Shown: positions 3,325 to 58,190 of the stretch, piece by piece
Position numbering within the stretch: the stretch's first letter is position 1
How the letters are laid out: each line of letters begins with the position of its first letter
NCBI GenBank assembly: GCA_026182355.1
Contig: JAPFBL010000239.1
Span: forward strand, 124,001-188,000
Direction: 5' to 3'
Source of the DNA: Hermatobates lingyangjiaoensis
Lineage: Eukaryota > Arthropoda > Insecta > Hemiptera > Hermatobatidae
Length of the DNA: 64,000 nt
The notes under the pieces: generated by a model
What the model was told of the DNA's origin: nothing
Seen by the model: only the letters and a program-made list of their open reading frames with translations
Database searches by the model: none
Program-made: the position numbers and the translations under genes

Positions 3325-3590
3325 AAGATATCATAATAAACACGTGAAATAACAATCAATGATCGAACCACAATAAGAAATGGGGGGAAAAAAAAGACTA
3401 AGGTCTTTCAACCGTAACAAGCGGTCTTACTCAGAGTCAAAAACCAAACTGACGTTTTTGACTCTGACGAAGACTGCTTGTTACGGTTGAGAGATCTTGG
3501 TCTTTTTTTTTTCATTTTTTATTGTGGTTTGATCATTGGCATTTAATAATTTAGCATTAATGACACACATGATATGTAATTAAACAATAA
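3325..3590. repeat. Family E fold-back element
   Basis: Inverted repeat: the left arm begins with CACGTGAAATAACAATCAAT and the right arm ends with TATTGTGGTTTGATCATTGG. Both arms carry the family E hairpin on opposite strands (3396-3438 minus, 3460-3502 plus). The trailing GATATGTAATTA is shared with the copy at 5842, so the element extends past the palindrome. Confidence 0.8.
3396..3438 (-). ncRNA. Hammerhead-like motif, family E left arm
   Basis: On the minus strand: helix I GACT, box CTGAGTA (a variant of CTGACGA), extra A, stem GACCG against CGGTT, GAAA, then AGTC closing helix I. The core box is mutated, so activity is doubtful. The plus-strand partner at 3460 has GAGA in place of GAAA. 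Confidence 0.5.
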
Positions 3591-4119
3591 GAGGCCGACT
3601 GAATACGTATCGAAGTATTTGAAAGTAGTTGTGTTGGTACCGGAACCTCGTATTCGGCTACACCGATACCTGGCGTTATTCGAATACTTCGACTATTTGG
3701 TATTCGATACGCTCATATGTAAGTATGGTAAATAGATGGAAGTTATACGTGAAAGGGAAGTTTATTTCCATCCGGCAATCACAATGAACAAAACTCACCT
3801 CATCTTCTTTATCATATCGCACAAAACGAAACATTGAGCCAAAAGCAAAAGATGAACAAAAAACCAAAACAGAGACTAGGTTAAAGGGGCAGAATCAGTC
3901 GTACGATTCTTAATTAGGGCAGTTTCCATAATTCTTCTTTCGATGCCTCATGATAGAAAACAATTTATTAGCGACTTCCCGGTTTACTGAATGCATCAGA
4001 CTCCTATTAACTTTTATAAACTATTTGTCCTGTATAAACCAAGTAATTACTGGAGTATTTCAAAAAATTGAAATGAAAAATGACAGTATATTTTCAGATG
4101 TTTCAGTATATTTTCATTT

Positions 4120-4400
4120 TTATTAAGGTTCAAGATTAAGTAAGTCATTTTTCATACTAATTCGCTTGTTAAAAACATCAATAGTGCAATTCAACATTCA
4201 TATATTGTATTCAACTTACAATAATTCACTCTAAATTTCTTAAATCTCACAGATATGTGTAATCTTTTTAGATGTAAATCTGAAGAAGAACACTAAGTTT
4301 TCGAAAAGCGTTGTTAATTTTCATACTAAAACTTTTTTTGCGTGGAGATGTAATTTTTGAAATCGTCCAATATGAGTAAATACAACACTATAACAGATTC
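4120..4400 (+). repeat. Family C element, single arm
   Basis: Related to 13345-13760, 14160-14666 and 49070-49345. The ribozyme-like core (CTGAAGA at 4280-4286, extra A, GAACAC..GTTTTC, GAAA) is followed by AAACTTTTTTTGCGTGGAGA. That conserved tail translates in one frame as (C)VE(T) and recurs after the hairpin in families A to D. Confidence 0.7.
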
Positions 4401-4495
4401 CACTTGTAATGAACCAAGTATGTTCTTTTCCGTTTAACCAACAAATTTTAAATTATTAGTTGTGCAATGCGTAATTATATGGTATTTACTCGGTC

Positions 4496-4770
4496 TAGGG
4501 TAAAATGGATAAACAAACAAAAGTCTTCACACAAATGAAGTTTTATTCAACAACAACAACGCGTTTCGAACACTTTGTGTTCATCATGAGAAAGACACTA
4601 AGAATGTGGTGTCTTCAATAACTCTTGTTTTGTTTTCACTGAACCAACCATTCAGCACCACATCCTTGGTGCCTTCCTGATGATGAACACAAAGTGTTCG
4701 AAACGCGTTGTTTTGTTGTTGAATAAAACTTTATTTGTGTGGAAACTTTTGTTTGTTTACCTATTTTACC
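4496..4770. repeat. Family B fold-back element
   Basis: Arms begin TAGGGTAAAATGGATAAACA and end GTTTACCTATTTTACC in inverted orientation. A ribozyme-like hairpin lies in each arm: minus strand about 4558-4590, plus strand 4677-4709. The arms are nearly identical while the middle is unique. Confidence 0.8.
4677..4709 (+). ncRNA. Hammerhead-like motif, family B
   Basis: CTGATGA (4677-4683), extra T, six-base-pair stem GAACAC/GTGTTC with AAA loop, GAAA (4700-4703), then CGCGTT, allowing helix III AC/GT and H17 = T. The conserved core is intact, but helix I pairs poorly (only the first pair is clear). Confidence 0.5.
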
Positions 4771-4774
4771 TCAG

Positions 4775-5841
4775 AATGTACAAATATTACATGGAGAAAT
4801 TAAAATTGGAGTTGAGAATTTAATTGAGATGAGGGAAAGATAGCACTTGTGAGCACTAAGAATTGGAAAAAGATGTAAGGAAGTGATTAAGCACTTTAAA
4901 GACGACGTTTCAGAGAAACAGGAAAACAAGCAAGCCAAGAACGTCTTCTGATTGGGCAAGAAGAAAAGGGAATTCGAGCTCTCATAGTAAAACCTGCTAA
5001 ACTTACTAAAAAAAAACAACAAGAAAAAGACCAATTATAATTAAAAAAAATATAGAAAAAAAATACCAGCTATCAACATTTAATATTCATGAAATAGAAA
5101 TTAAAATAGTTAAAACAGTAAGTCTTCCTTCATTAAATGAATGATTATTTTGAAAATAAATAACCAAACTATAAGAAACCCAAACCATCTCATCCTAATA
5201 AAATTCTAATCATATTAAGTCTTAAAATTAATATAAAGATAGAAAAAATAAACATTAAAACTAAATACCAAAAAGAACCTTATTAAAATCAGATGATATG
5301 TAAGAATGACTATATAAAACTAATATGAATGAAATTAAAAATACGGAGCTTCTAAATAATATAGATATTCAGTCAAAAATAAAAGTAACAGAAATAAAAG
5401 TTCTCATAATTGAAATACACTCTCAGTAGAGAGTCAGCTATTTCTTATTATATGTATTTCTTCTTAATATGCGTATATTCAATATCTTTTTTACAGTATT
5501 TTAAAACTTGAAATAAGGAGCCTTAACTTATTTCCACTAATGGTCTCAAATTTCTTCTTAACAACCCTACCTATACATCATTATAAATTGTAACTTGGAA
5601 ACTAATGTATAAATATGATTTTAGAATGAAAAGCCTTTAATATACATTCTACGTAATTTTAAGAAACCAATAAATAAATTTTTCGACTTTTCAAGTACTC
5701 ACTATAAGAAGTAGTTTTGGAATAACATCTCCACTTACCTGAAAAAATAAAAGAAAACATAAATTACTTAAAGTTATTACAGATGCCAGTAAAACTGTAT
5801 GTAACATACATGACAAGCATTGATATAAATGTAATAACAAA
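4775..5841. other. AT-rich stretch without recognised gene
   Basis: Very AT-rich with many short A and T runs. No element or ORF I can support. The minus-strand ORF at 4771-5034 overlaps the family B tail and has a chance-like composition. Confidence 0.6.
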
Positions 5842-5911
5842 CAAGATTTCACAATAAGCACATGAAATAATAATCAATGATCAAATAATAATATGAAATG
5901 GGAACAAAAAA

Positions 5912-5954
5912 GACTAAGTTCTTTCAACTATAACAATCGGTCTTCGTCAGAGTC
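5912..5954 (-). ncRNA. Hammerhead-like motif, family E
   Basis: Minus strand: GACT, CTGACGA, extra A, stem GACCG..TAGTT, GAAA, GAACTT, AGTC. Helix I GACT/AGTC is perfect and the CUGANGA and GAAA boxes are intact. Stem II is weakened by substitutions. Confidence 0.55.
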
Positions 5955-5986
5955 AAAAACCCAACTGATGTGAATCAGTTGGTTTT

Positions 5987-7367: not shown

Positions 7368-8401
7368 ACCTAAGTATAGTTGGATTAATCTGTTGACGTG
7401 TATTAATAGTATATGTATACTACTACAGTCAAATGACAATTTTCGTTCAGTCTGGGAACACCAAGGGGCTCTTCCAGTAGGGTAACTCAGTTTTTGAGTG
7501 ATTTATCTGCGATTTTACACACCGTCGGAGGGGGATCGATCCCTTGCGGATTCTCTAATTCAACAATGTTTGAATATCATCATAATACTGTTTATATCAT
7601 TTTTAAAGAAGATGTTAAACTTTTTAACAACAGTTTCACAGTTGCTGAAATGTTAAAATTATTATTTTTTTATTTTCAGTCACACAGTGTAGAGATTTCA
7701 TTAAATCTGCATACATTAATAATCAACAGTGTTGCCATACTCGTTCATTATCAGGAGTAGCTCACAGTTTCTGAAACAATTTTTGACGCAGAACTGTTCG
7801 ATTCTGTAACTTTCTTGGGAACCCTAGATTCGAATGATTTTACACGGTTATAATATAAATATTTTCATATCTCTTTATAAATATTATGCTCGTTAAATAC
7901 AATGAAAAAGTAATACTATTACAATGTGTATTTTTGGAATAAAAATTCCAAACTAAAAGATTTTAATTTCAATATTTCCCACAAGAGCGTAGCACATAAA
8001 ACGGAATTACTATCAATTTCAACACAAATTTTATATTGTAAACATGTTTGGCTTTATAGCTGATAGTTTGATTCTTGATTCTTGTTTGATTTTTAAGTCA
8101 TCCTCGATTAAGTCGACGATTAAGGCTAACTAGGTGTTTGGTTTTTATGGCACTAAAAATGATAATCCAGTTTCACATAAGTAGGCAGTCGGAAGTGGCA
8201 GCAATATATGAAGTGCTACTTTTACAATAGAAGGAAATTCGGGAATCAGATAGTTCCAAAAAATGACAAGTAATTCAACCTAAATATGAATAAAATGCTG
8301 ACCAATTCTACTTATGTGTTTAAGTAGATATACACATTATTCATTGTAGGGTAAAAATCTAATGAAATGGTCTCCACATATAAAAATTTTAATGATACAA
8401 A

Positions 8402-8435
8402 CAATGCGTTTCGAACACGTAGTGTTCTTCCTCAG
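8402..8435 (-). ncRNA. Hammerhead-like motif, family A left arm
   Basis: Minus strand: CTGAGGA, extra A, stem GAACAC/GTGTTC with TAC loop, GAAA, CGCATT. Core boxes intact; helix I pairing is weak, as in all family A copies. Confidence 0.45.
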
Positions 8436-8957
8436 GCATTAACTAAAAAATACAATGCCACCAGAGAGTTATCTATAGTACAAAGTAAATAAGTACAAAA
8501 ATTAATATAAAATAAAATAAGGCAGAAAGTACGAACCTAAGGATGAGTGCCTCTGAATAAGACTGACTGGAAATGGAATGAACATGGGTGGGGGTATAGG
8601 GTACATCTGTTTCTTATTAGAGCAGGTACATTTTTCTCTTAAAAGTTAGGCTGAGCCTTTACATTTTCTTTTAGACTAAGTGTAATTATATTTTTTCAAT
8701 ATGTTTCCTACACTTAGTCTAAAAGAAAATGTAAAGGCTCAGTCTAACTTTTAAGAGAAAAATGTACCTGCTCTAATAAGAAACAGATGTACCCTATACC
8801 CCCACCCATGTTCATTCCATTACCAGTCAGTCTTATTCAGAGGCACTCATCCTTAGGTTCGTACTTTCTGCCTTATTTTATTTTATATTAATTTTTGTAC
8901 TTATTTACTTTGTACTATAGATAACTCTCTGGTGTCATTGTATTTTTTAGTTAATGC

Positions 8958-8991
8958 CTGAGGAAGAACACTACGCGTTCGAAACGCGTTG
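8958..8991 (+). ncRNA. Hammerhead-like motif, family A right arm
   Basis: CTGAGGA (8958-8964), extra A, stem GAACAC against GCGTTC (one mismatch), GAAA (8981-8984), CGCGTTG. Mirror image of the hairpin at 8402. Confidence 0.45.
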
Positions 8992-9388
8992 TTTGTATCA
9001 TTAAAATTTTTATATGTGGAGACCATTTCATTAGATTTTTACCCTACAATGAGTAAATACCACATAATAACTGATTGCACTACATTAGAATTAAGGACAC
9101 ATTATTCAGTTTCATGATTCACAAGAAACACAGAATAAATCCATAACAACTAAAAAAAAAAATAACATTTAGAAAAATGTTTGTTTTAAATTTTTTTCTC
9201 GGAACTCCAGACAGTCCGTTAAGGAACCCCTGGATTTTGCAGTACTAACTTTGAGAAGTTCTGCAATAGAGGACTGAATAGCATTGAGTTTGGCTAGAGA
9301 GGAAACAGCTGGCTAGACTAATCGACAGTTAGTAAAAACTTTGTGCAATATTACATATGCTTATAATCATATTAGCAACAGTAATAAT

Positions 9389-9721
9389 TGTAGGGTGAAA
9401 AGCTAATGAAATAGTCTCCACATATAAAAATGTAATGGTATAAACAACGCGTTTCGAACACGTAGTGTTCTTTCTCAGGCATTAACTAAGGGTGAGTGTC
9501 TGTGGTACACTGCAACTATGGTAACTGCAACAACTGTGGTCTGTGAGCAACTGCAGTTGTACCACAGAGACTCACCCTTAGTTAATGCCTGAGGAAGAGC
9601 ACTACGTGTTCGAAACGCGTTGTTTATACCATTACATTTTTATATGTGAAGACAATTTCATTAGCTTTTTACCCTACAATGAGTGAATACCACATAATAA
9701 GTGACTGCACTATGTTAGAAT
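9389..9721. mobile_element. Short family A fold-back element
   Basis: Exact 9-bp duplication AGTAATAAT at 9380-9388 and 9722-9730. It has the same ends as 8344-9096 but a much shorter interior, so only the terminal 120 bp or so of each arm are shared. Hairpins lie at 9445-9478 (minus) and 9589-9622 (plus), and both keep GAACAC/GTGTTC. Confidence 0.85.
9589..9622 (+). ncRNA. Hammerhead-like motif, family A
   Basis: CTGAGGA, extra A, then G(A/G)GCAC..GTGTTC stem with one G-T pair, GAAA, CGCGTTG. The opposite-strand partner is at 9445-9478 with box CTGAGAA. Confidence 0.45.
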
Positions 9722-10659: not shown

Positions 10660-10860
10660 TAACACATAGAAAAGAACACAGAAAGACACTACAGAACTCA
10701 CTTCGATATTTCGACATCCGTCGTCATCGGGAAGAAATGCGAAGTACTCGCGTTGAGAAGCAAACTGCTACTGGCCTCCAGAATAACTCCTGGAACCACC
10801 GCAATGCTGCTCCCCAGCGGAGGAGAGGAAAAATAGAAATCCTTCCAATATTTATTTAGA
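10660..10860 (-). repeat. Family K element, partial
   Basis: Minus-strand copy of the repeat at 13760-13935: AGAAAGACACNACAGAACTCAC next to the hairpin at 10705-10729, followed by the GAAGNAATGCGAAGTACTCG region. The interior beyond 10760 is diverged. Confidence 0.55.
10705..10729 (-). ncRNA. Hammerhead-like motif, family K
   Basis: Minus strand: CCGATGA (second base of the CUGAUGA box changed), extra C, stem GAC..GTC with GGAT loop, GAAA, TATC. H17 would be C. Confidence 0.4.

Positions 10861-11024: not shown

Positions 11025-11070
<46 letters not shown>
10878..11070. repeat. Simple repeats (ATA)n and (TA)n
   Basis: AT-only trinucleotide array 10878-10955 and TA arrays 11027-11070, separated by a short unique segment. 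The two ORFs listed across them on opposite strands (IYIYIY runs) are artefacts. Confidence 0.9.
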
Positions 11071-11071
<1 letters not shown>

Positions 11072-11422
11072 GGTGTATAATAAAATCGGGATTCGGTCAA
11101 TTTTCCAGGATCAAAATCAAACTCTCAATGCCTACGTTTCGGTTTTATTTAAAACCTTTTTCATAGGCAGAAGTCAGAATTTTTGAATTAGAAAAATGAT
11201 GAAATGATGAAACTGGTCCAAGTTTTTGACCAGTTAAGATGTTAGTTCACTAACTATTTATTGTTACTTCATTTTATATAATGTAAATTTCATCATTTTT
11301 CTAATTCAAAAATTCAGACTTCTGCCTATGAAAAAGGTTTTAAATAAAACCGAGACGTCGGCATTGAGAGTTTGATTTTGATCCTGGAAAATTGACCGCA
11401 TCCCGATTTTATTATACACCTA
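11071..11422. repeat. Family F fold-back element
   Basis: Perfect outer ends AGGTGTATAATAAAATCGGG and its complement at 11403-11422. Each arm has the family F hairpin GGTTTT..AAAACC followed by GAAACGT or GAGACGTCGGC. Upstream GCC can pair with downstream GGC, but the CUGANGA box is only TATGAAA. The relation to other hammerhead-like families is therefore by architecture, not by intact core. Confidence 0.75.
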
Positions 11423-11489
11423 TTCTATCCAACGGTTGACATATTATTGAATTCGTTATATACATATATATATATATATATATGTTTTC

Positions 11490-11625
11490 ACGATGAATCA
11501 CAAACACAGAACTAAGGAACAAACACAATTACTGTCTCTAATTTTCGGTTGAACCGTCATCAGGAGAGTTGAGAAAGGCACACCAAGCGCACTTGTGAAG
11601 CGACGGTTGGAGACCCTCCAACTAA
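11490..11625 (-). repeat. Family M element
   Basis: Carries the best family M hairpin (11535-11567). Similar segments are at 6474, 56096-56330 and, more distantly, 27995 and 36690. Confidence 0.6.
11535..11567 (-). ncRNA. Minimal hammerhead-like motif, family M
   Basis: Minus strand, only 33 nt: TCTC, CTGATGA, extra C, GGTTCAACC hairpin, GAAA, ATTA, GAGA. Helix I TCTC/GAGA is perfect, helix III can form as AA/TT and H17 is A. Both conserved boxes are intact. If real, this is close to the smallest hammerhead fold imaginable. Confidence 0.6.
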
Positions 11626-11959: not shown

Positions 11960-12105
11960 TTTACATAAACACGTGAAATAACGTCAGTTGGGTTTTTGAC
12001 TCTGACGAAGACCGCTTGTTACGGTTGAAAGATCTTAGTCTCGTTTTCCCAATTCACATTGTGGTTCGATCATTGATTGTTATTTCACGTGTACATGTGA
12101 AATAT
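11959..12105 (+). repeat. Family E element, left arm partly lost
   Basis: Begins CATAAACACGTGAAATAACG and jumps into the middle of the usual element, so only one ribozyme-like core remains. Ends TTATTTCACGTG. An AT microsatellite lies immediately upstream. Confidence 0.8.
11998..12040 (+). ncRNA. Hammerhead-like motif, family E (reference copy)
   Basis: Helix I 5' strand GACT (11998-12001), CTGACGA (12002-12008), extra A (12009), stem II GACCG/CGGTT with a CTTGTTA loop, GAAA (12027-12030), GATCTT allowing helix III AG/CT and H17 = T, helix I 3' strand AGTC (12037-12040). All helices pair and both boxes are intact. The inserted A between the core box and stem II departs from the classical hammerhead. 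Confidence 0.6.
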
Positions 12106-13760: not shown

Positions 13761-13935
13761 TATAAAATAAAATAAATTCAAAACGAAGGAAACACACAGA
13801 AAGACACAGACATAACTCACATCGATATTTCGACCATCGTCGTCATCAGGAGGTGCGAAGAGCGAAGAGTCCCGCAGGAAGACAGGGCGGTATTTATTTT
13901 ATTTTAAAAAAGTCCGCTGGACCGTTTCTTTAATT
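13760..13935 (-). repeat. Family K element
   Basis: Minus-strand unit: (C)AGCGGACTTTTTTAAAAT..hairpin..AACACACAGAAAGACACAGA. Near-identical to 49840-50022 and related to 40720-40915 and 10660. Confidence 0.7.
13818..13855 (-). ncRNA. Hammerhead-like motif, family K
   Basis: Minus strand: CACCTC, CTGATGA, extra C, GAC-GATG-GTC, GAAA, TATC, GATGTG. Helix I pairs at five of six positions (CACCTC/GATGTG), helix III is AT/AT and H17 is C, giving a classical cleavage-type triplet. Confidence 0.55.
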
Positions 13936-14115: not shown

Positions 14116-14240
14116 CATAATATATATATATATATTATATATTTAGATTCATTAACTCTGCAGTCTTTTATAGTGTGGTATTTACTCATGTTAGAAAAAG
14201 TATTAAGTCTCCACACAAAAAAGTTTATTACAAGAAACTA

Positions 14241-14279
14241 AACAACGCGTTTCGAACACTTGATGTTCTTCTTCAGGTT
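14241..14279 (-). ncRNA. Hammerhead-like motif, family C
   Basis: Minus strand: AAC, CTGAAGA, extra A, GAACAT..GTGTTC, GAAA, CGCGTT, GTT. Helix I AAC/GTT pairs and boxes are intact. Confidence 0.5.
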
Positions 14280-14473
14280 ATACCTAGAAAAAATATATAT
14301 GCATTTAAGAACTTTGGGAACATAGGGGAGAATTAATTAAAATGAATGCATCTGACACTATTCAGTGACATTATTTCCCTTATTACTGAATAGTGTCAGA
14401 TGTGTTCATTTTAATTAATTCTCCCACATGTTCCCAAAGTTCTTAAATGCATATATATATTTTTTCTAGATGT

Positions 14474-14512
14474 AACCTAAAGAAGAACAACAAGTGTTCG
14501 AAACGCGTTGTT
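14474..14512 (+). ncRNA. Hammerhead-like motif, family C, mutated box
   Basis: AAC, CTAAAGA (G5 changed), extra A, GAACAA..GTGTTC, GAAA, CGCGTT, GTT. Loss of G5 should abolish catalysis in a real hammerhead. Confidence 0.4.
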
Positions 14513-14666
14513 TAGTTTCTTGTAATAATTTTTTTTGTCTGGAAACTTAATATTTGTTAGATGTTAACCTGAAGAAGTTAACCTACGTGTTCGAAACGCG
14601 TTGCTGGTTTCATATTAAACTTTTTTTTTTTGTACGGAGACGTAATTCTTGAATCTCTCCAATATG

Positions 14667-15057: not shown

Positions 15058-15105
<48 letters not shown>
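14996..15105 (+). repeat. Family F tail and (TA)n
   Basis: AACTGACCGAGACCCGATAG and the following 40 bp match the end of family F copies. It leads into a TA array from 15058. Confidence 0.7.
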
Positions 15106-15111
<6 letters not shown>

Positions 15112-15267
15112 GTAGACGGCAGCTTCCGCATTTACGACTTTTTTGCTCGTGTTTTCTAGTTTTCGAACTAGTTTTTTCTGGTAGGGAGTGATTTCGTGGA
15201 GGAGTTGTCCCAGAGACATCAAAGAAATAATTTTGTAGCTTAATCAATAATATTATTTTTTTATACT

Positions 15268-15305
15268 TACAAGCTTTCGATTTTCCCGGAAATCATCATC
15301 AGGTA
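15268..15305 (-). ncRNA. Hammerhead-like motif, family H left arm
   Basis: Exact mirror of 15482-15519: TAC, CTGATGA, extra T, GATTT..AAATC, GAAA, GCTT, GTA on the minus strand. Confidence 0.55.
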
Positions 15306-15481
15306 TATAGATCATTATCAAACAGATTAAATTAACTCAATAATAATTTTTCAAAGGTTAAACAGACATTAAAAGGATTAAAATTTAGAGGTTAATAGGT
15401 TAATTTTAATGCTTTTAATGTCTGTTTAACCTTTGAAAAATTATTATTGAGTTAATTTAATCTGTTTGATAATGATCTATA

Positions 15482-15519
15482 TACCTGATGATGATTTCCG
15501 GGAAAATCGAAAGCTTGTA
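15482..15519 (+). ncRNA. Hammerhead-like motif, family H right arm
   Basis: Helix I TAC/GTA, CTGATGA (15485-15491), extra T, five-base-pair stem GATTT/AAATC, GAAA (15509-15512), helix III AG/CT with no loop, H17 = T. Boxes intact and identical in both arms. Confidence 0.55.
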
Positions 15520-15564
15520 AGTATAAAAAAATAATATTATTGATTAAGCTACAAAATTATTTCT

Positions 15565-15735
15565 TTGATGTCTCTGGGACAACTCCTCCACGAAATCACT
15601 CCCTACCAGAAAAAATTGGTTCGAAAACTAGAAAACACGAGCAAAAAAGTCGTAAATGCGGAAGCTGCCATCTACTTTAATAAAATATGTTCACAAGAGA
15701 ATCTGCTGTCAATATACACTAATATATATATTATA
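15565..15735 (+). pseudogene. PLE N-terminal-like coding fragment (family H)
   Basis: Open frame beginning MMSLGQLLHEITPYQKKLVR, then KLENTSKKVVNAEAAIYFNK and ICSQENLLSIYTNIY before running into a TA microsatellite. The order lysine-rich helix, (I/V)xFN..C, then LL..YTNIY is shared with fragments at 18001, 26104, 33271 and 40463, which differ at most positions. That argues for a once-coding sequence. It lies 45 bp downstream of the family H ribozyme-like motif and is mirrored on the minus strand at 15108-15226. Assignment to Penelope-like elements rests on resemblance to the N-terminal region of PLE reverse transcriptase ORFs and is inference. No RT domain is present. Confidence 0.5.
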
Positions 15736-16925: not shown

Positions 16926-17524
16926 CAATTACAGATTACACAACTAATGAGTTAAAAGTTATTTTCTTGATATAATTGATCTAACATTCTTTAAAATTAA
17001 AAATAAATTACTCCAAAGCTAATAAAATATAAATTGACTCTCTTTAATAATCTTCTACATAAGTAAACCAACTCTAAAGTTGTCAAACTAGATAAGTAGA
17101 ACGACAGGAGAGTCAAAATTAAATATTGATCTTGGACTTGCAGCCGCCAACACATTTCCAATTACTTCTCATGCTTCCTCTGCAACTCGACCAGATTTCA
17201 TCTCTCTTCTGTTTACCCAAGCAAATATAATTTAGAAATAACTTTCCATCTTATTTAGTTATCAAAGAGCAATAAATAACTTTGAAATTTCTTTTAGAAA
17301 AAAATAAAAAGAAAAACATGAAGCTCGATTTCACACAGATTTTTTTTGTTAAATAAGATATAATGAAAAATATTTCCTATTCTTTTAACAATTTAAAATA
17401 TATTATATCGCAGCTTTCTTTTGAAAAGATACAATTTTTATTTCTCAAAATAATATGATATTAGCAATAATAAAAAATGCCTGCGTGACAATTTCTGCTA
17501 ATATTTGTAAAATAAAAAACAGTA
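16926..17524. other. AT-rich stretch without recognised gene
   Basis: Nothing supported. Confidence 0.5.
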
Positions 17525-17576
17525 ATTTTCTTTTTTATCGAGGTTTGGTCTAGCTTCAATAATACAACAACTTTAA

Positions 17577-17615
17577 GCCGACGTTTCGTCTATATTTGTA
17601 GACATCTTCAGGATT
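17577..17615 (-). ncRNA. Hammerhead-like motif, family G left arm
   Basis: Minus strand: CTGAAGA, extra T, GTCTA/TAGAC stem, GAAA, CGTC, GGCTT. Boxes intact, H17 = C. Helix I is weaker here because the 5' strand reads AAATC instead of AAGCC. Confidence 0.5.
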
Positions 17616-17742
17616 TGGTATTTTTCTATTTTGAGGAAGCAATTACATAACGGTTTGTGTTCAAATCAGCTAGTGTGCTGCCCTAGTATTTGATTTGAAC
17701 ACAAACCGTTATGTAGTTGCTTCCTTACAATAGAAAAATACC

Positions 17743-17784
17743 AAGCCCTGAAGATGTCTACAAATATAGATGAAACGTTGGCTT
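17743..17784 (+). ncRNA. Hammerhead-like motif, family G right arm
   Basis: Helix I AAGCC (17743-17747) pairs perfectly with GGCTT (17780-17784). CTGAAGA 17748-17754, extra T, stem GTCTA/TAGAT, GAAA 17772-17775, helix III AC/GT, H17 = T. One of the best-paired examples in the window. Confidence 0.6.
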
Positions 17785-17982
17785 AAAGGTGTTGTATTAT
17801 TGAAGCTAGACCAAACTTCGATAAAAAAGAAAAATAGTGTTAAGTATATGTGGTCGAGATAAGGAAAACATTAAAATAAAAAACATTTGAATGGGTTACA
17901 CTCATCTTTAATGATAAGTACTGGTATATTCAAACTGATTGACAGTTAACTTAATCAATTGATCATTGTGTCTGATCAATAG

Positions 17983-29158: not shown

Positions 29159-29716
29159 TAAAAGATGTGAGGTAAATGAGGTAAAAGATGTGAGGTAAAT
29201 GAAGTAAAAGATGTGAGGTCAATGGGGTAAAAGATGTGAGATAAATAAGGTAAAATATGTGAGGTCAATGAGGTAGAAGATGTGAGGTAAATGAGGTAAA
29301 ATGTGAGGTAAATGAGGTAAAAGATATGAGGTAAAGGATATGAGGTAAATGAAGTAAAAGCTGTGAGGTAAATGAGGTAAAAGATGTGAGGTAAATGAAT
29401 TAAATGATGTGAGATAAATGAGGTAAAAGATGTCAGATTAATTATGTAAAAGATGTAAGGTAAAAGATGTGAGGTAAATGAAGTAAAAGATGTGAGATAA
29501 ATGAGGTAAAAGGTGTCAGGTATATGATGTAAAAGATGTAAGGTAAAAGATGTGAGGTAAATGAGGTAAAAGACGTGAGGTAAATGAAGTAAAAGATGAG
29601 GGGCAAATTAGGTAAAGGATGTGAGGTAAATGAAGTAAAAGATGCGAGATAAATGAGGTAAAAGATGTGAGGTAATTGAGGTACAAGATGTGAGGTAAAT
29701 GAGGTAAAAGATGTGA
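29159..29716. repeat. 23-bp minisatellite
   Basis: About 24 imperfect copies of GAGGTAAAAGATGTGAGGTAAAT. The unit is itself two related halves (AGGTAAAAGATGTG, AGGTAAATG). The two long minus-strand ORFs over it are periodic artefacts, including the longest ORF in the window. Confidence 0.95.
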
Positions 29717-30767
29717 GTCGCTTCGCAGCAAGTGACGATTGAGTCTTGGTTAATTTATATTTGACAAATATCACGTTTATAATAAAGCTATTCAAATACA
29801 CTTTCTTTTTGTAGTATACAATGCATATGTGGCAATATTTCTACAAAATAAAAGACTTCTTATTCTAGAGAGAACGAAATAATAAATCTTTAGGAAATAA
29901 GTTTCTTGAATGTGGTGGAGGATTTTCTATTTTTGTTCGTTCTTGGAAGACATTGAAAACTGTTAACTGCAACCAGATGTGACTAACTTCCGGAATTCCA
30001 CAGTTGATAATATGGGAAGAATAACGTGTGTTTCTCTGTGAAAACACAGTGTCACTTGGATGACAGAGGCGAAGGCAAAAGAAAATACGGGGCAGGGGGG
30101 CGCCTGATTAACTGTCTTGCTTCAAATGACTTTGAAAATAAAATGAAATCTCGCCAAGAAAATCGATTTCGACTTCAAAAGATTCAGTCGTTTATAATTC
30201 ATATATCATTTATAAAGACCGCTTTATTTTCTTTAACTAAAAACAGTTCTAGTTCTAAAAGAGACAATGTTTCTATAAAAAGAATTTTTTTTCTCATTGT
30301 AAGAAAGCATTGGAAAAATTAGATATGGTTTTTTTTTTAAAAACCAAGACAGGAGATCTTGAAGCATCTAGTTAACATTGAATTTAGATGGATTCCTTTG
30401 AAAGGTGTGCCAAGTTATAATGAAAACAAAAGACAGCAAATCTTTCACATAATTTGAAACAATTAACTTGTTTGTAACTTAACAAGTTGATTGGTTTTTG
30501 TTGGAAAAGATTTGTTAGAAGCTAAAAAGAACAGTCAGTTTTGGCATAAAAGCACTCTGGCGAATCGTCGTTATAACGATACATGTGAAAAGAGTTGGCC
30601 GCAGGGACTCCTTCATCATCACAGAGGTCAAGTGCCTCTCACCTCCTGCTTTAAACACATTTCTTTAACCCTGTTCTTTTGATCATCCTCCACGAGACAC
30701 TAAACTCTAAATGCATATTTATCTCTAGAAAAAGCAAAAAAGTAACTACTCACGTCTAGTTTTCAGT
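29717..30767. other. Unassigned stretch
   Basis: No supported element. The plus ORF at 30026-30322 (98 codons) is Lys/Ser/Phe-rich and unrecognised. Confidence 0.45.
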
Positions 30768-38710: not shown

Positions 38711-39060
38711 TTAAGTATTAAGTATACTATAATATACTTATTAGTATATTTAACGAAGTATACTTAGTTAAATATACTTACTAAGTATACTTAACGAAGT
38801 ATACTTAGTTAAATATACTCACTAAGTATACTTAACGAAGTATACTTAGTTAAATATACTTACTAACTAATTATACTTAACGAAGTATACTTAGTTAAAT
38901 ATACTTGCTAAGTATACTTAACGAAGTATACTTAGTTAAATATACTTGCTAAGTATACTTAACGAAGTATACTTAGTTAAATATACTTACTAACTAAGTA
39001 TACTTAGTTAACTATACTTAATACTTGGTTATACTTAGTATTAAGTATTCTAGGTATACT
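38711..39060. repeat. 41-bp palindromic minisatellite
   Basis: About seven copies of a 41-bp unit built from TAACGAAGTATACTTAGTTA and AATATACTTACTAAGTATAC. Each unit is almost self-complementary (AAGTATACTT). Copies are nearly identical, indicating recent homogenisation. Decays into TACTTAGTATTAAG variants after 39000. Confidence 0.95.
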
Positions 39061-39702
39061 AAATACTAAGAATACTAACCATTCTACTAAGTATTCTTAT
39101 TCATCGTTAGAATACTTCAGAAGTGCAAGTGTATTCTGGACGACTGGTAAACTTGCAACTAAAGAAACACTGACTGAATGCTCCTTGATCGACAGCAATC
39201 ATCTGAGCTGAGTGCCATTGATGCACTCAGCCTACGGCAAGTCCAACAGAAGGAAAGAATTCCTAGCAAAGCGCTCTGACCGCAATGCCTTCACCTGTTT
39301 TCCTACTTTTACAATGAGCTTTCCCTGAGTTTCCCTTTAATGTAGCAAGTAAAAGACTTCTTACCAGGCTACCTCCTTTGTAAAGATACAGTGTTCTTCA
39401 TTCGTGTTCTTCGTGCAATAACATTTTATACCCAAAGTGCTCATAAGAGTCTGAGATTCTATCGTAATCAGCCACATTAAGTAAATATCTCCGATTGAAC
39501 TTTACAATTCAACTTTTCAATTACAGTTAAACAACTGTGTAGCTTAATTTTTCGTTAAGTTTTTTTTTATGTTTTCCTCTCGGGTAGTCACTCTACCATG
39601 AGAAAGTATATTTTTGTAACCTGTTCCCTTTTTAATTACCTAATCTTACTTTTACTTACATTTGCACTACACTGAAATATAATATAATACTAACCTATTG
39701 CA
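39061..39702. other. Unassigned stretch
   Basis: Balanced composition at 39110-39340, but no ORF or element recognised. Confidence 0.45.
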
Positions 39703-39890
39703 GAGTGAATAGCTAATGAAATGGTCTCCACGTTATAAAAATTTAATCGTATAAACAACGCAATTCGAACACCACGTGTTCGAAACACGTTGTTTATACG
39801 ATTAAATTTTTATATGTGGAGACCATTTCATTAGCTTTTTACCCTATAATTCGTAAATACCACATAATAACTGATTGCACTACGTTAGAA

Positions 39891-40227: not shown

Positions 40228-40230
<3 letters not shown>

Positions 40231-40343
40231 CATAATTGAAAATGACGCCGAATTTAGCTGATACCTGTTTCTTAACAAGTTTCTCAATTTTACTAAATAA
40301 TACTCTCGTTATTTCGTCTACACAATAAACTACATCTCCTGTA

Positions 40344-40382
40344 GTCGACATGTTTCGAATGATCAACATTCATCATCAGGAC
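40344..40382 (-). ncRNA. Hammerhead-like motif, family L left arm
   Basis: Minus strand: GTC, CTGATGA, extra T, GAATG/CATTC stem with TTGAT loop, GAAA, CATGTC, GAC. Boxes intact, helix I GTC/GAC, helix III AC/GT closing an AT loop, H17 = C. The ATG of the outward frame lies across that loop. Confidence 0.6.
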
Positions 40383-40431
40383 GTGAATAATTTCTAGGGT
40401 GAATTATCTGTTCACTGTAGAAGTTATTCAC

Positions 40432-40470
40432 GTTCCGATGATGAATGTTGATCATTCGAAACATGTCGAC
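40432..40470 (+). ncRNA. Hammerhead-like motif, family L right arm
   Basis: GTT, CCGATGA (U4 to C), extra T, GAATG/CATTC, GAAA, CATGTC, GAC. As the left arm but with one changed core base. Confidence 0.5.
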
Positions 40471-40639
40471 TATAGGAGATGTAGTTTATTGTGTAGACGA
40501 AATAACGAGAGTATTATTTAGTAAAATTGAGAAACTTGTTAAGAAACAGGTATCAGCTAAATTTGGTGTCATTTTCAATAATGTGTGTGTCAAGGAAGTG
40601 TGTCATTTATATAAATTAAATATATATATATTTTTTTAA
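40463..40639 (+). pseudogene. PLE N-terminal-like frame starting inside ribozyme-like motif
   Basis: ATG at 40463-40465 lies within the sequence GAAACATGTCGAC. The frame reads MSTIGDVVYCVDEITRVLFS, then KIEKLVKKQVSAKFGVIFNN and VCVKEVCHLYKLNIYIFF, about 58 codons. Residues STIGD, (E)xT, K.EKL and FN..C recur in the fragments at 15565, 18001 and 33130. The mirrored arm (40232-40351, minus) carries the same frame. No catalytic domain; the element is a short derivative. PLE identity is inferred from the N-terminal pattern. Confidence 0.5.
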
Positions 40640-41815: not shown

Positions 41816-41962
41816 ATTTATTAATTGTGCGATGAGTTATTCTGTGGTATTTACTAATATTTCGGAAAGTATTGGGCCTCCACACGCACACACACACACA
41901 ATTTATTAAAAAAATAAACAACGCGTTTCGAACACTAGATGTTCTTCTTCAGATTCAATAAT
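41816..41962 (-). repeat. Family C element, single arm
   Basis: Minus strand: hairpin 41916-41955 (CTGAAGA, extra A, GAACAT..GTGTTC, GAAA, CGCGTTGTT), then the GTGTGGAGGCCC tail and GAGTAAATACC-like end. Contains a (CA)n run of 20 bp. Confidence 0.7.
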
Positions 41963-42284: not shown

Positions 42285-42790
42285 ATATATACTTTTCCCA
42301 ATATATATTAAATTATAAATATTGCGTAAAATATTAAGTCACACACAAAAGCGTTTATTTAAATAAAATATATAAAACTTGTTAATTACATATATATTTC
42401 AGATGTAACCTAATGTATAGAATTCCAATTGAAGTGTTCGAAACGCCAGTTAATTTTAGTAGTTTTTTTTTATATTTTTTTTTTATTTCACTTGCTCTCC
42501 GAAGATGTGTTAACGAAAGGCCTTAGAGCATTGTTTTAAAAAATTGTTTTCATTGTGGTAAATTAATCCATCTATTATATCAAGTGTTATTTTGATTATT
42601 ATTCATATATATACTTTTCCCAATATATATTAAATTATAAATATTGCGGAAAATATTAAGTCACCACACAAAAGCGTTTATTTATGATATATATAAAATG
42701 TATACATATATATTTCAGATGTAACCTAATGAAGAACATAAGTGTTCGAAACGCGTTTTTAGTAGTTTTTTTATAATAAATTTTTTTTGT
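42285..42790. repeat. Two family C-like copies flanking a family N segment
   Basis: 42285-42478 and 42607-42790 are near-duplicates (TATACTTTTCCCAATATATA, AATATTGCG, TTTCAGATGTAACCTAATG, AAGTGTTCGAAACGC). The 42479-42606 segment between them is family N. It looks like an N insertion with a long duplicated flank, or a tandem array with inserted N. Confidence 0.65.
42493..42530 (+). ncRNA. Hammerhead-like motif, family N
   Basis: Helix I TGCTCT (42493-42498) pairs perfectly over six bases with AGAGCA (42525-42530). Box CCGAAGA (U4 to C), extra T, short stem GT/AC, GAAA 42515-42518, helix III AG/CT closing GC, H17 = T. The longest perfect helix I in the window. Confidence 0.55.
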
Positions 42791-45764: not shown

Positions 45765-45942
45765 GTAATCGATAAAAAGATTCCACATAAACACGTGAAA
45801 TAACAATCAATGATGAAACCACAAAATGAAATTGGAAAACAAGACTAAATGAGTTGGGTTTTTGACTCTGACGAAGACCGCTGGTTACGGTTGAAAGATC
45901 TTAGTCTTATTTTCCCATTTCATATTGTGGTTTGATCATTGG
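45765..45942. mobile_element. Family E element with 8-bp TSD
   Basis: CTAGTAGT occurs at 45757-45764 and 45943-45950, directly bounding the element, so family E inserts as a discrete unit. Left arm shortened; one core remains. Confidence 0.75.
45864..45906 (+). ncRNA. Hammerhead-like motif, family E
   Basis: GACT, CTGACGA, extra A, GACCG/CGGTT, GAAA, GATCTT, AGTC: identical to 11998-12040 except one loop base (CTGGTTA). Confidence 0.6.
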
Positions 45943-48082: not shown

Positions 48083-48389
48083 GGGGCCAGGCTAGCTCAG
48101 TGGTTACGCGCTCACCTCTGAACTGATAGGACGACCGGGGTTCAATCCTCACCTGGCCCTCGCAGGAAGTGAATAAATCTGAGCACGTCGTCCCTCGGAA
48201 AAGGACGTTAAACCGTCGGTCCCGAGCCTGTACGATGTCAGGTACTCGTTAAAGATCCCTACTCTAAATACATTTGAGTTAGGCAAAATTTAGGACTCCC
48301 ATTGTAGAATCAATCTTTATTGTGTGGTATCACAAAGGGCCAATGCTTGGCCTAAGTGTGTTCCCTTGTGGGACTGCCACTGCAACCTA
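48083..48389 (+). mobile_element. tRNA-derived SINE with CCTAA-type tail
   Basis: Flanks ACCTATAACCAA (48071-48082) and ACCTACAACCAA (48390-48401) match at 11 of 12 bases. A box GCTAGCTCAGTGG, B box GGGTTCAATCC. Tail GACTGCCACTGCAACCTAAC. Same subfamily as 36834-37156. Confidence 0.9.
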
Positions 48390-49069: not shown

Positions 49070-49345
49070 TAATAATATTTGCGAGCTAAGAATATCAGAG
49101 TAATTTATTTGAAATGGAGTACAACATATTCACTATCCTCAATAGTGCAATTTAATATTCATGTATGGTATTCAATTTCAAATACAAATTTTAAGAACTC
49201 TGTGTTCTTAAAGCTCACAGATATGCATTATTTTTTTATATGGTATTTAAACCTGAAGAAGAACACTAAGTGTTCGAAAAGCATTGTTAGTTTTCATATT
49301 AAACTTCATTTGTGTGCAGACGTAATTTTTGAATCCCCAATATGA
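49070..49345 (+). repeat. Family C element, single arm
   Basis: ATTCATGTATGGTATTCAAT, then the hairpin, then TTCATTTGTGTGCAGACGTA and the AATATGAATTTT end. It follows directly on family G. Confidence 0.7.
49250..49288 (+). ncRNA. Hammerhead-like motif, family C
   Basis: AAC, CTGAAGA, extra A, GAACAC/GTGTTC with TAA loop, GAAA, AGCATT, GTT. Helix I AAC/GTT and boxes intact; helix III is altered (AAGCATT). Confidence 0.5.
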
Positions 49346-49840: not shown

Positions 49841-50022
49841 AAAGAAACGGTCCAGCGGGCTTTTTTAAATAAAATAAATTCAAAACGAAGGAAACACACA
49901 GAAAGACACAGACATTAACTCACATCGATAGTTCGACCATCGTCGTCATCAGGAGGTGTGAAGAGCGAAGAGTCCCGCAGGAAGGCAGGGCGGCGACTCA
50001 TTTCTTCGTTTTGAATTTATTA
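49840..50022 (-). repeat. Family K element
   Basis: Near-identical to 13760-13935. Hairpin 49921-49958 has GAAC instead of GAAA and is probably dead. Confidence 0.75.
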
Positions 50023-52022: not shown

Positions 52023-53373
52023 TCTTTATAAATAAAATAATGATTTTGTCTGTACATTGCTTAGAACTGACTCATTTCAAGTTTTCTTTACGTTTCATAC
52101 ATTGGAGAAACCGAATCCACCCTTAGAAAAATTTCTGTCGGTTTGTCGGTTTGTCCGCAAAACTTTGTCACAGGTAAACTCAGCTACCATAAGACATATA
52201 AAGCTGAAACTTTTACAGTAGATTTGTGTAGGTCTAACTTAAAATATAGGCTATGAATTGATTGGAACATCAACGTAGAAGTGAAGTTATGGACGTTTAA
52301 CGCAAAAATGTTTGTCACAAGTAAACTCAGCCACCATAAGACATAGCGAGCTGAAACATTGACACTGGATTTGTGTGTGCCTAACTTAAAATATGGGCTC
52401 TAAATAGATTATTAATTCAGTACAGAAGCGAAGTTATGGGGCTTTTAGCTGTATTTTCCTAACTTCACAGACAAGTTTGTTTTGAAAATACACAGGTGTG
52501 GCAAGTAGGTATTGTTAGTTGATTTTAATTTCAATTGAGCACATGAATATATTGCGTATTTGACATCATTGAAATGGTGTTTCACAGAGTTAAGGATGTA
52601 CTATCTATTGAGGATAAATGTTTTGTAAACGAGCAATTCTCAGCCCTTAATATGAACAGGCATGAGAAATCAACAAACAAGTTCTTACGCTATATGAAGC
52701 CGAGGAAAGAACTTACAAGTCAGTAAAGAGATTGGATTAGTGATGAAGAAGCAGTTCATTATCTAATTGAATTTCTTGACTCTGAATTTATTTCTCCTGG
52801 ACTGCCTGCTCATGAGTAAAAACTTAAAGTAGGAGCACCAATGATGCTGCAATTTATAGCAGTAACAAATTTCATGTTACGAAACATGAGTGACCCAAAA
52901 ACTGTGCAACGGGACACGACTCTGAGTTCGTGCTCTACACAGATATGCCATAGAGGCGGACATAATGACTGGATGTGGTATTGGGGAGTCTTCCGAACCA
53001 CTGTCTGTTTCCATTCAAATGATTGCAAGGTCCCCTCAGAGTCTATTTCGCAATGACGTTAACTAAGTCGCAAAGGGAGACTTTATCTAACGCAGGAATT
53101 CAAGTTAGCGAAACCAAGTTTTTCTCACATGGTCAACTGTAGTTTACTTGCTCAATAGTCAGAGGTTTCAACTGATTGTTCTTCCATGAACCTGAAGGAC
53201 AGACAGCTAATGTAGTGTATACAGAGGCATTTGTTTAACACTGTACTAATAATGGTGTTTTCTACTATTCTATAATTTCTAATTATAGTATTAGTATAAT
53301 ACTATAATTGATATGTTGGAATACCAAGTATAATAGAATTTTTGATTCCGTCAAAGACGGGTACATTTGCTAG
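52023..53373 (+). mobile_element. Helitron with TC...CTAG ends
   Basis: Starts TC (52023) and ends CTAG (53370-53373), inserted between A (52022) and T (53374) with no target duplication, as expected for Helitrons. A hairpin CCGTC-AAA-GACGG at 53348-53360 lies 9 bp before CTAG, also canonical. Both borders are confirmed by the uninterrupted sequence at about 9125. Contains a direct repeat of 147 bp (52164-52310 and 52311-52457) and a broken helicase remnant. Length 1351 bp, so non-autonomous. Confidence 0.85.
52560..53270 (+). pseudogene. Helitron Pif1-type helicase C-terminal remnant
   Basis: In broken frames: EAVHYLIEFLDSEF, SPGLPAH, KLKVGAPMML, then RNMSDPKTVQRDTT, then RVYFAMTLTKSQRETLSNAG and KFFSHGQL, then ANVVYTEAF. 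These correspond in order to the conserved end of Helitron helicases (EFLN..., LKVG.P..LLRN, FAMTINKSQGQT, FSHGQLYVA, NVVY.E). Several stops and an insertion between APMML and RNM show it is inactive. Rep domain and Walker A region are absent. Confidence 0.8.
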
Positions 53374-53559: not shown

Positions 53560-53748
53560 AACAAGATTTCACAATATGAAATTCAAACCACAATATGAAA
53601 TAGGAAAAAAAGGCTAAGATCTTTCAACCACAACAAGCGGTCTTCGTCACTTCGTCAGCTGGACTTTTGACTCTGACGGGAGACCACTTGTTGTGGTTGA
53701 ATGAACTTATTTTTTCCCATATCATATTGTGGTATGATGAATGGATTT
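53560..53748. repeat. Family E fold-back element, diverged
   Basis: AAGATTTCACAATATGAA to CATATTGTGGTATGATGAA. Hairpins: minus strand TGACGAAGACCGCTTGTTGT.., plus strand CTGACGG with GACCA..TGGTT then GAATG (GAAA lost). Confidence 0.65.
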
Positions 53749-55603: not shown

Positions 55604-55646
<43 letters not shown>

Positions 55647-56078: not shown

Positions 56079-56095
56079 GTATATATATATATATA

Positions 56096-56330
56096 CGTTC
56101 AATGTAGACAAAGGAATATAGAGAAATTAAAAACACACATATAGAGTCTTTAATTTTCGGTTTGAACTGTCTTCATAAGAGGTGGGAGAGGAAAACCAAA
56201 CACACTGGTACAAAAACAGTTAGGTCTCCAACCTTCCATAGCCTATCTCTCCTGAAGACGGTTAAACCCGAAAATTAGAGACCATAAGAGTGAGTTTTTA
56301 ATTTTTCTATGTTTCTTTATCTACATTCAA
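56096..56330. repeat. Family M fold-back element
   Basis: Ends TTCAATGTAGACAAAGGAAT and its imperfect mirror TTCTTTATCTACATTCAAGG. Hairpins at 56148-56180 (minus, decayed) and 56248-56281 (plus). Confidence 0.7.
56248..56281 (+). ncRNA. Hammerhead-like motif, family M
   Basis: TCTC, CTGAAGA (56252-56258), extra C, GGTTAAACC plus one unpaired C, GAAA, ATTA, GAGA. Helix I TCTC/GAGA is perfect; stem II has a bulge compared with 11535. Confidence 0.5.
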
Positions 56331-56351
56331 GGCTCCGAGAAGCTGGTTTAC

Positions 56352-56566: not shown

Positions 56567-56817
56567 TGGAAAATTGTGTAATTACTTTTGATTGAAGGAT
56601 GAAGAAGGTTATACGACAGAGAACAAAATGTCATACAGCCTGCAGTGTAGAAACAAACAATTACAAATTGTTTAGGTATGGGGCAGGTTAGAGAAAGGTC
56701 AGCCGAGTTTGTACAGACATTTAAGGGGCGGAACTAATTTAGAACAAGCTAAAGGTTAGGGAGGTAACAAAGCCGAGGGTGGATGTCCAGAGGGGGTGTT
56801 CAATGGCTTCTACTTAC

Positions 56818-56902
56818 CCCACCGCTCATCCGGAGACCCTGAGGCCGAGAACGCTGACCAGGAGAGCCTTCGGATGAAGGACAGGATGTCCGCAGTACTT
56901 TG
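56818..56902 (-). other. Possible exon-like segment with consensus donor
   Basis: GC-richer 85-bp segment between TTAG (56903-56906) and GTAAGT (starting 56817). One frame reads QSTADILSFIRRLSWSAFSA and SGSPDERWG. The donor matches the GTAAGT consensus. It cannot be joined in frame to the ORF at 56352-56566 through the acceptor I see, so status is uncertain. Confidence 0.25.
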
Positions 56903-57092
56903 CTAACACACCAAGTCAGAGGTGTCTATGGCGTGCGGCTTCCCGTAACGTTACAAAGTGCCAACTCACCCACACCATCTTCATGTTTAGAACAATCCTA
57001 TCACAACCGGTGGGTCATCCGTACAGCTCTAGTTTATCCCGAAACCAAGGTTTCGAAATGAAACTGAATACCAATGTTCTATTGGTTTAAAC

Positions 57093-57512
57093 CAGTGTTT
57101 CCCAAACTTTTTCGAGTGACCGCGTCCATAAACCTATAAGTCAACACCCTTGAATAATAATCAGATTCCTAGACTAAATAACCACATGACTAACATTTTA
57201 ATAATTAAATTAAAATAATTACTAATCGAATATTTATTTAGAATCCAATAGATGTATTATTTCAAAGCATATTATGCAAAAGAATTGATACACAATAAAA
57301 GAAACTTAGGTGAGAATATACTTTTAACATAAAAATGAATTATCAAAACAAATAATTTTAAAAAACTGTTTCTTAGAAGTTTACATGTCGTGTTTTCACT
57401 TAAATTTAGAAATTATATTGCATGAACATTTCCAATTTATCGAAATAGAATCCCTCTCCTTTTTTCATTGCCGCCCCCAGGGGGGCGGTACCACCCACTT
57501 TGGGAAACACTG
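57093..57512. mobile_element. hAT MITE with exact 8-bp TSD
   Basis: TIR CAGTGTTTCCCAAA at both ends (14 bp exact, inverted). Flanked by GTTTAAAC at 57085-57092 and 57513-57520, an exact, palindromic 8-bp duplication. Length 420 bp, AT-rich interior, no ORF. The hAT superfamily is supported by TIR type and TSD length. Confidence 0.9.
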
Positions 57513-57520
57513 GTTTAAAC

Positions 57521-57792
57521 CGATTCCCTAGAAAGTCAAAAACGTCAGCCCTAACGGTTTTTTTGTTTAATCGGTGATTCTACCGATTAAAATTTAGGAG
57601 TCCTAAATTTTGCTTAACTCAAATTTATTTAGATTGGGGATTTATAAAGAATATTTGACATCGTACAGGCTCGGGACCGAAAGTTTAACGTCCTCTCCGA
57701 GGGACGAAACACTCAGATTTATTTACCTCGAGGGCCGGAGTGGTTATTGAATCAAGGACTCTCCAGCCTTAACCATGAGCTAACCTGGTTCC
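57521..57792 (-). mobile_element. tRNA-derived SINE, internally deleted
   Basis: Begins exactly at the right TSD of the preceding hAT MITE. Tail AAAAACGTCAGCCCTAACGG, body GGTCCCGAGCCTGTACGATG (minus), head GAACCAGGTTAGCTCATGG. Part of the tRNA region between the A and B boxes is rearranged. Confidence 0.8.
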
Positions 57793-57829
57793 TTACCAAT
57801 GTTCTACAACTGATTCACAGACAAATACC

Positions 57830-57965
57830 TGCAAGTAAAGTCGGAATGCTCTGGCGTAATAATTTCTCTGAGACCTTTCGTGTATTCAGTCGTCAGAGAG
57901 CAAGTGAATACATGCTATTCACTTGTTCTCTGACGACGTGATAAACGAAAAGCCTCAGAGTGACT
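57830..57965. repeat. Family N fold-back element
   Basis: Inverted arms meet at GAATACATGCTATTC (57906-57920). Hairpins: minus 57866-57900 (CTGACGA, C.., ACGAAAGGTCTCAGAG) and plus 57926-57960 (CTGACGA, extra C, GTGATAAAC, GAAA, AGCCTC, AGAG). Helix I is TTCT/AGAG in the plus arm (one G-T pair). Confidence 0.65.
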
Positions 57966-58057
57966 ATCTTCTATCTTTCGCGGTGAGTTACTTGAATATT
58001 TATATCACGTGTTATTGTAATAATTTTATATAAATTTAGATATTTAAATAATTAATC

Positions 58058-58190
58058 ACCAGGAGAAAAGTGAAGCATAACCCACTTGAGAAGAAAAACA
58101 AAGGTTTATCACATCTCCTAATGACGACTATGATTCGTCGAAATATCAAGTAAGTTATTCTACTCTTTACTCAGTGTTTTCTCCTCGTGA
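58058..58190. repeat. Family K-like element with hairpin
   Basis: ATCACCAGGAGAAAA mirrored by TTTTCTCCTCGTGAT. Hairpin 58118-58146: CTAATGA (G5 changed), extra C, GAC..GTC, GAAA, TATC. H17 would be C. Confidence 0.5.

Follow-up and report, generated by a model that had tools for sequence, protein, structure and literature searches.

Minimal hammerhead-like repeats with a constant extra base before stem II in a contig of Hermatobates lingyangjiaoensis

The stretch of DNA analysed here, referred to below as the window, comprises 64 kilobases (kb) of the Hermatobates lingyangjiaoensis genome (assembly GCA_026182355.1, contig JAPFBL010000239.1, positions 124,001 to 188,000 of the forward strand), and it contains several families of short repeats that share the architecture of a hammerhead ribozyme, with one extra base between A9 and stem II. 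We distinguish seven families with an intact core (F1 to F7), one in which the core is broken (F8), one in which each of the three copies has either a changed T4 or an imperfect palindrome (F9), and traces of one more near position 18430. Copies with a GAACAC/GTGTTC stem, most of which contain ACGCGT, have flanks in common (31 matching pairs downstream and 20 upstream) and form the superfamily F1, while stretches common to F7 and F8 reach 80 bases. The original prediction, made from these letters only, counted at least ten unrelated families; the presence of several families is supported, but several of those counted merge into one superfamily, and we count seven with an intact core. Judging by helix I, its families C, E, G, H, J, L, M and N map to our F families and its family I to the traces near 18430, and its families A, B, D and K probably match F families as well. 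Many copies sit in the arms of long inverted repeats, which reach 348 nucleotides (nt) per arm and are 93 to 99% complementary (Table 1).

We scanned both strands of the window with a strict filter that required an exact CTGANGA core, a stem II, GAAA, a self-complementary 4- or 6-mer, a base other than G at the cleavage position H17 and at least two pairs in helix I. This gave 13 matches, compared with none across 60 shuffles that preserved the dinucleotides of 2-kb blocks, and the predicted order of boxes (helix I, CTGANGA, one base, stem II, GAA-A, a short helix III, H17, helix I') is therefore real. The single extra base ahead of stem II, which had also been predicted, was constant in the strict scan (13/13) and in every scan graded by core mismatches: with one mismatch and a stem II of at least four pairs (14/14; shuffle mean 0.05), with two mismatches and the same stem (17/17; shuffle mean 0.40), and with three mismatches, a stem II of at least five pairs and a helix I of at least three (10/10; shuffle mean 0.17). 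A parallel, differently scored scan found 14 matches, against 0.1 in 40 shuffles. When the palindrome was not demanded (stem II, GAAA, at least one helix III pair, a loop of 0 to 6, H17 not G), 23 of the 59 exact CTGANGA cores were retained and the best reading had one extra base in 22 of them; the sole exception, at 53658, can be read as a member of F2 when placed in register, and then has a single extra base and GTGACGA as its core.

With an A+T content of 67% and many simple repeats, the window might be expected to produce artefacts of chance or low complexity, but the empty shuffles refute such an origin, to which we assign a probability close to zero. When collections of viral and prokaryote contigs were scanned with the box patterns, moreover, stems II of at least five pairs stood at chance level, with 1, 3, 2 and 0 of the 127 distinct matches listed having them at 0, 1, 2 and 3 extra bases, respectively. 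Two of the viral contigs, L001 (11740-11776) and L014 (3691-3728), contain matches in which a single extra T precedes a stem II of seven pairs and of five pairs, respectively; their helices I are weak (1 and 2 pairs), and both matches are probably due to chance.

The core of a hammerhead consists of C3 U4 G5 A6 N7 G8 A9, G12 A13 A14 and the A15.1-U16.1 pair. All of these are invariant in one representative from each of the seven families, although the representatives were themselves chosen with that core. When bases 3 and 8 were varied over their 16 combinations, C3/G8 yielded 21 hammerhead-like contexts among 59 cores and each of the other 15 combinations only 0 to 3 (17 to 105 cores per combination), and this almost exclusive retention of C3/G8 is the pattern that a ribozyme would leave. 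TTGANAA cores, in which U3-A8 replaces C3-G8, were considered as a second active class and rejected, being hammerhead-like in only 3 of 105 cases.

The helices differ between families and nevertheless pair, as had been predicted. For the covariation test we trimmed the seven hand-chosen representatives and aligned them without gaps. Within a family, 24 of 28 helix I positions pair with their own partner (permutation mean 14.9; 4 of 5040 permutations as high), as do 27 of 28 stem II positions (mean 19.7; 2 of 5040). Overall, 92.9% of the cells are paired, compared with 63.4% after shuffling (0 of 500 as high), and sliding the partners out of register leaves at most 38.1% paired. The covariation test that the original prediction had called for revealed changes on both sides at 8 of 10 base pairs, with at least one in each helix (24 cells, against 7.2 in shuffles). 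All representatives had passed the stem II filter and some also the palindrome filter, so that the absolute pairing figures are inflated; the strict-scan comparison is free of that selection, since the same filter was applied to real and shuffled sequence. Helices I and II are maintained by covariation.

Such results bear on the idea that the boxes come from one recent ancestor and the pairing is merely inherited, or that the motif has another, non-catalytic function, for instance as a target or priming signal. The boxes are indeed common to all families, and F8 and several other copies have broken cores. However, both strands of the helices have changed together between families, and the flanks of F1 to F7 match one another only at overlapping neighbours and over stretches of at most 44 bases. 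The retention of C3/G8 far above any other combination also speaks against this explanation. We consider this explanation very improbable.

The sequence between GAA and H17 is a perfect, loop-less palindrome of 4 or 6 nt in all seven representatives (ACGCGT, AGATCT, AGCT, ACGT, ACATGT, ATAT and AATT in F1 to F7), and not, as had been proposed, a helix III of about two pairs with a loop of 0 to 2 nt. In the palindrome-free scan, 15 of the 23 best readings were loop-less and the other eight had loops of 2 to 6, at least some of the latter being decayed copies (at 8435, for example, ACGCAT stands in place of ACGCGT). A palindrome without a loop cannot close on itself, so in none of the seven representatives could helix III form within one RNA, and pairing is possible only between two. 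The original prediction confined the need for dimers to families with a weak helix I (A, B and D), which now looks too narrow, as the loop-less helix III suggests that all seven families would depend on a partner RNA. Double hammerheads held together by a joined helix III have been described for newt satellite RNA, avocado sunblotch viroid and Penelope-like elements (passages of PMC6466107 and PMC6155905), and the review among these states, in the part consulted, that dimer action requires a palindromic sequence at stem III as well as tandem copies (PMC6466107). As far as the same passages go, the newt satellite and the avocado sunblotch viroid share with the window copies a weak helix III; the newt copies, unlike those of the window, are satellite repeats with loop-loop contacts.

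The identity of the extra base depends on the family, being A in F2 and most of F1, T in F3 to F5 and C in F6 and F7, with T in four F1 copies (4590, 4677, 16780 and 16835). Given that A has no pairing with G12, the extra base of F1 and F2 appears to be truly extra. An extra T could wobble with G12, and the extra C of F6 and F7 could pair with it, lengthening stem II at the expense of the core. H17 is T, C or A in the seven families, after exclusion of G by those scans that filtered H17. It had been stressed that neither the extra base nor H17 is ever G, but this is not significant, as seven families give about 13% by chance (0.75^7) and G was barred at H17 in the scans. The hammerhead of chrysanthemum chlorotic mottle viroid is of type III and monomeric, in which the window motifs differ from it; a kinetic study of this hammerhead in 2001 reportedly found that A was tolerated, U favourable, and C and G harmful. 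An extra base at this site does have precedents, according to passages of PMC10085705 and PMC3705267; the plus-strand hammerhead of that viroid has one unpaired A directly behind A9 (PMC3705267), where the window motifs have A, T or C. The literature passages on Penelope hammerheads contain no statement of a constant extra base, but two key primary descriptions lie outside the literature covered, so this silence is no evidence that the feature is unpublished.

Many of the copies are arranged in mirror-image pairs. We counted orientations among 47 hand-picked catalogued copies of families other than F9, leaving aside rows that matched only briefly or only over the 3' half (including 6490, 7244, 10552, 10613, 33185, 39759, 39789, 40053, 42136/42144, 45881, 49714, 55714, 59379 and 62637) and the F8 copies 2296 and 55991, and moving a few positions (3464 and 53674) to the core by hand. 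Of 28 neighbour pairs within 650 bases, 16 were head-to-head, 4 tail-to-tail and 8 on the same strand; shuffling the strands gave a mean of 7.1 head-to-head pairs, and none of 20000 trials reached 16. Among the 17 pairs of same-family neighbours, the numbers were 14, 2 and 1. Head-to-head inverted pseudo-long terminal repeats (pseudo-LTRs) are known from Penelope elements of rotifers, in which, according to passages of PMC3846280, the 5' ends are likewise central and the junctions palindromic, an arrangement attributed there to self-priming. The ten pairs listed in the window differ from the rotifer elements in that they stand alone, measure 123-720 base pairs (bp) and have no Penelope reading frame that we could find in a scan of 98 of 171 open frames. 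(TA)n lies directly to the left of three of these ten insertions, which may be compared with the AT-rich sites preferred by a Penelope element of Anolis (PMC11167929, in part). An F1-type insertion at 39740-39800 has its mirror centre inside the hammerhead, leaving each arm with the 3' half only.

Minimal hammerheads of Penelope-like elements carry the same core boxes as the window motifs. We think it very likely that the repeats are minimal, dimer-type hammerheads in solo or mirror-paired pseudo-LTR pieces of several Penelope-like families, or in short elements moved by such families. Passages of PMC7229834, PMC7761336 and PMC6155905 report thousands of minimal type I hammerheads, with no proper helix III, in animal genomes and in Penelope pseudo-LTRs. 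According to these passages, cleavage may take place in dimers, and the genome of one coral has 16 families with over 6000 minimal or canonical motifs. The window copies have the reduced, self-complementary helix III by which the dimer hammerheads of Penelope are recognised (PMC6466107, in part), and, as far as citing papers convey the work of Cervera and De la Pena (2014) and of Lunse, Weinberg and Breaker (2017), they also resemble those in having many families per genome and dispersed, non-coding copies. They differ from published Penelope hammerheads in the orientation of same-family neighbours, mostly head-to-head here and tandem there according to the same partial sources, and possibly in the single base between A9 and stem II, constant here in every match of the mismatch-graded scans, a comparison that does not extend to the published consensus. 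Thus, of the "variant minimal hammerhead class" originally proposed, the minimal hammerheads in several families with conserved pairing hold up in the scans and the covariation test, but the class is not new, because this kind of ribozyme had already been published; what is new here is further families of it.

For the activity of these elements, we propose that each pseudo-LTR piece would carry a minimal type I hammerhead with one unpaired base between A9 and stem II. Two RNAs, or two tandem copies transcribed together from an intact element elsewhere, would pair through the palindrome into a double hammerhead, which would cut both strands after H17 and so would reduce multimeric transcripts of the element to single units. 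The pairs in head-to-head orientation would be insertion products, most likely of a reverse transcript that folded back and primed its own second strand. In such a mirror pair, the ribozyme would be trapped with its antisense copy in one long hairpin, so that the majority of the window's copies are probably silent relics. At least seven families with one architecture, different helices and a constant extra base offer, within one 64-kb window, a natural test set that bears on the role of an unpaired base after A9 and on whether dimer-only hammerheads serve Penelope-like elements, F8 being multicopy with a broken core.

Several observations weigh against this interpretation. Energy folding was neutral to negative for the seven representatives: a hammerhead without helix III was the lowest-energy monomer fold for F4 only, and a homodimer with both stem II hairpins and palindrome pairing was predicted for F1 only, where it lacked helix I. 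The Rfam search that the original prediction had suggested found no hammerhead model matching the window, at the gathering score or up to an expectation value (E) of 10; the strongest matches to Rfam microRNA precursors fall on the mirror-image hairpins. Of the 171 open frames with 60 or more amino acids, 98 were scanned against Pfam; no reverse transcriptase or GIY-YIG domain was found among these, and only three weak, unrelated matches of one member each. A missing reverse transcriptase is to be expected for solo pseudo-LTR pieces, and therefore the window alone does not establish Penelope membership. The literature on dimers stresses tandem copies (PMC6466107, in part), yet the window has only one same-family tandem (14477 and 14569) among its eight same-strand neighbours within 650 bases, or 1 of 17 same-family pairs. 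In vitro, hammerhead cleavage was dispensable for insertion of the Anolis Penelope element, and no RNA reads ended at the cut site, according to passages of PMC11167929. Arm lengths do not clearly favour fold-back priming either: in ten pairs picked by hand among 25 listed of 81 inverted repeats, the ratio of the shorter to the longer arm was at least 0.86 in five and 0.41-0.75 in the other five, one of the low values (14195-14558) belonging to a pair with another inverted repeat inside it. Because the Anolis element cuts both strands of its target and extends them (PMC11167929, in part), two-ended insertion, with reverse transcription of two RNAs, is a live alternative for the origin of the mirror pairs.

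Family F8 raises a related doubt. Its core is broken in all six copies observed, at 2296 (+), 11156 (-), 11335 (+), 11805 (+), 15827 (-) and 55991 (+), although stem II, GAA (GAG in one copy) and ACGT are retained and helix I can be recognised by eye in four of the six. Thus, F8 looks ribozyme-dead and is nonetheless multicopy, which suggests that the ribozyme may not be needed.

The repeats could alternatively be non-LTR retrozymes, that is, small non-autonomous elements spread through circular RNA produced by canonical hammerheads. They are non-coding, fall into many families and have a low GC content, and animal retrozymes are likewise below 50% GC in the passages available of PMC7229834. 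However, the animal retrozymes described there are tandem repeats of about 150-450 bp with type I hammerheads and canonical helices, whereas helix III is loop-less in our representatives, the neighbours are mostly head-to-head, and 0 of the 47 catalogued copies lie within any of the four long-unit tandem arrays of the window. We therefore judge a retrozyme origin distinctly unlikely, and prefer the Penelope-type dimer hammerheads.

A stronger version of the Penelope-type interpretation would hold that the unpaired base and the loop-less, palindromic helix III together are an obligatory, selected feature of a dimer-only class, and that the mirror insertions are copies of two RNAs held together as a dimer. 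We regard it as unlikely. If true, the extra base would leave the core functional in a dimer whose two RNAs have helix III in common, and dimerisation would shape integration as well as cleavage.

The covariance model, built from the seven representatives and run on the window, gave 48 matches up to an E of 1, of which 40 had already been catalogued. All 20 matches at an E of 0.01 or less were catalogued beforehand, and seven of them are the model's own training copies. The eight uncatalogued matches include one from a family absent from the model, at 42495-42528, with one extra base and a palindrome, and the weakest matches (for example 98, 36729 and 59324) may be due to chance.

Table 1. Hammerhead-like motifs and mirror-image insertions in the window, with E values from the covariance model
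Feature	Position	Strand	Covariance model
F1 representative, extra base A, palindrome ACGCGT, H17 T	14240-14280	-	model R1, 22.7 bits; in model
F1 copy	49249-49289	+	E 0.0011
F1 copy, helix I of five pairs	41916-41956	-	E 0.011
F2 representative, extra base A, AGATCT, helix I GACT/AGTC	11998-12040	+	in model
F2 copy	45864-45906	+	E 0.001
F3 right arm, extra base T, palindrome AGCT	15481-15520	+	in model
F3 left arm, hammerhead identical to and head-to-head with 15481-15520	15267-15306	-	
F4 right arm, extra base T, palindrome ACGT, helix I AAGCC/GGCTT	17744-17783	+	in model
F4 left arm	17576-17615	-	E 8.7e-5
F5 left arm, extra base T, palindrome ACATGT, H17 C	40343-40383	-	in model
F5 right arm, core CCGATGA	40431-40471	+	E 0.17
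F6 representative, extra base C, palindrome ATAT, H17 C	13820-13853	-	in model
F6 copy, core CCGATGA	10701-10734	-	E 5.3e-6
F6 copy	49923-49956	-	E 1.5e-4
F7 representative, extra base C, AATT, H17 A, helix I TCTC/GAGA	11535-11567	-	in model
F7 copy, head-to-head with 56147-56180 (-)	56248-56281	+	E 1.6e-6
F8 head-to-head pair, hammerhead-like outer parts, core broken	11069-11423		
F9, core CCGAAGA, extra base T, AGGCCT, six-pair helix I TGCTCT/AGAGCA	42495-42528	+	E 0.037; outside model
F9 head-to-head pair, cores CTGACGA, imperfect palindromes	57866-57900; 57926-57960	-; +	E 0.35; E 0.11
Mirror insertion, 348-nt arms, 98% complementary, 24-nt spacer, F1 hammerhead in each arm (left palindrome ACGCAT)	8337-9056		
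Mirror insertion with F1 hammerheads (left-arm core CTGAGAA), 123-nt arms, 95%	9387-9680		
Mirror insertion, 281-nt arms, 99% complementary, 16-nt spacer, F3 hammerhead in each arm	15105-15682		
Mirror insertion with F4 hammerheads, 151-nt arms, 93%	17518-17841		
Mirror insertion with F5 hammerheads, 174-nt arms, 95%	40230-40584		

Besides the hammerhead-like repeats, the window contains a 23-bp minisatellite (AGGTAAAAGATGTGAGGTAAATG) with a strong GC skew at 29159-29717, a tandem array at 38728-39077 whose 41-bp unit is rich in TATACTTA and itself inverted-repetitive, and a 147-bp unit repeated 1.9 times at 52164-52439. At 48084-48161 lies a sequence resembling a glutamine transfer RNA (tRNA-Gln), possibly part of a short interspersed nuclear element.

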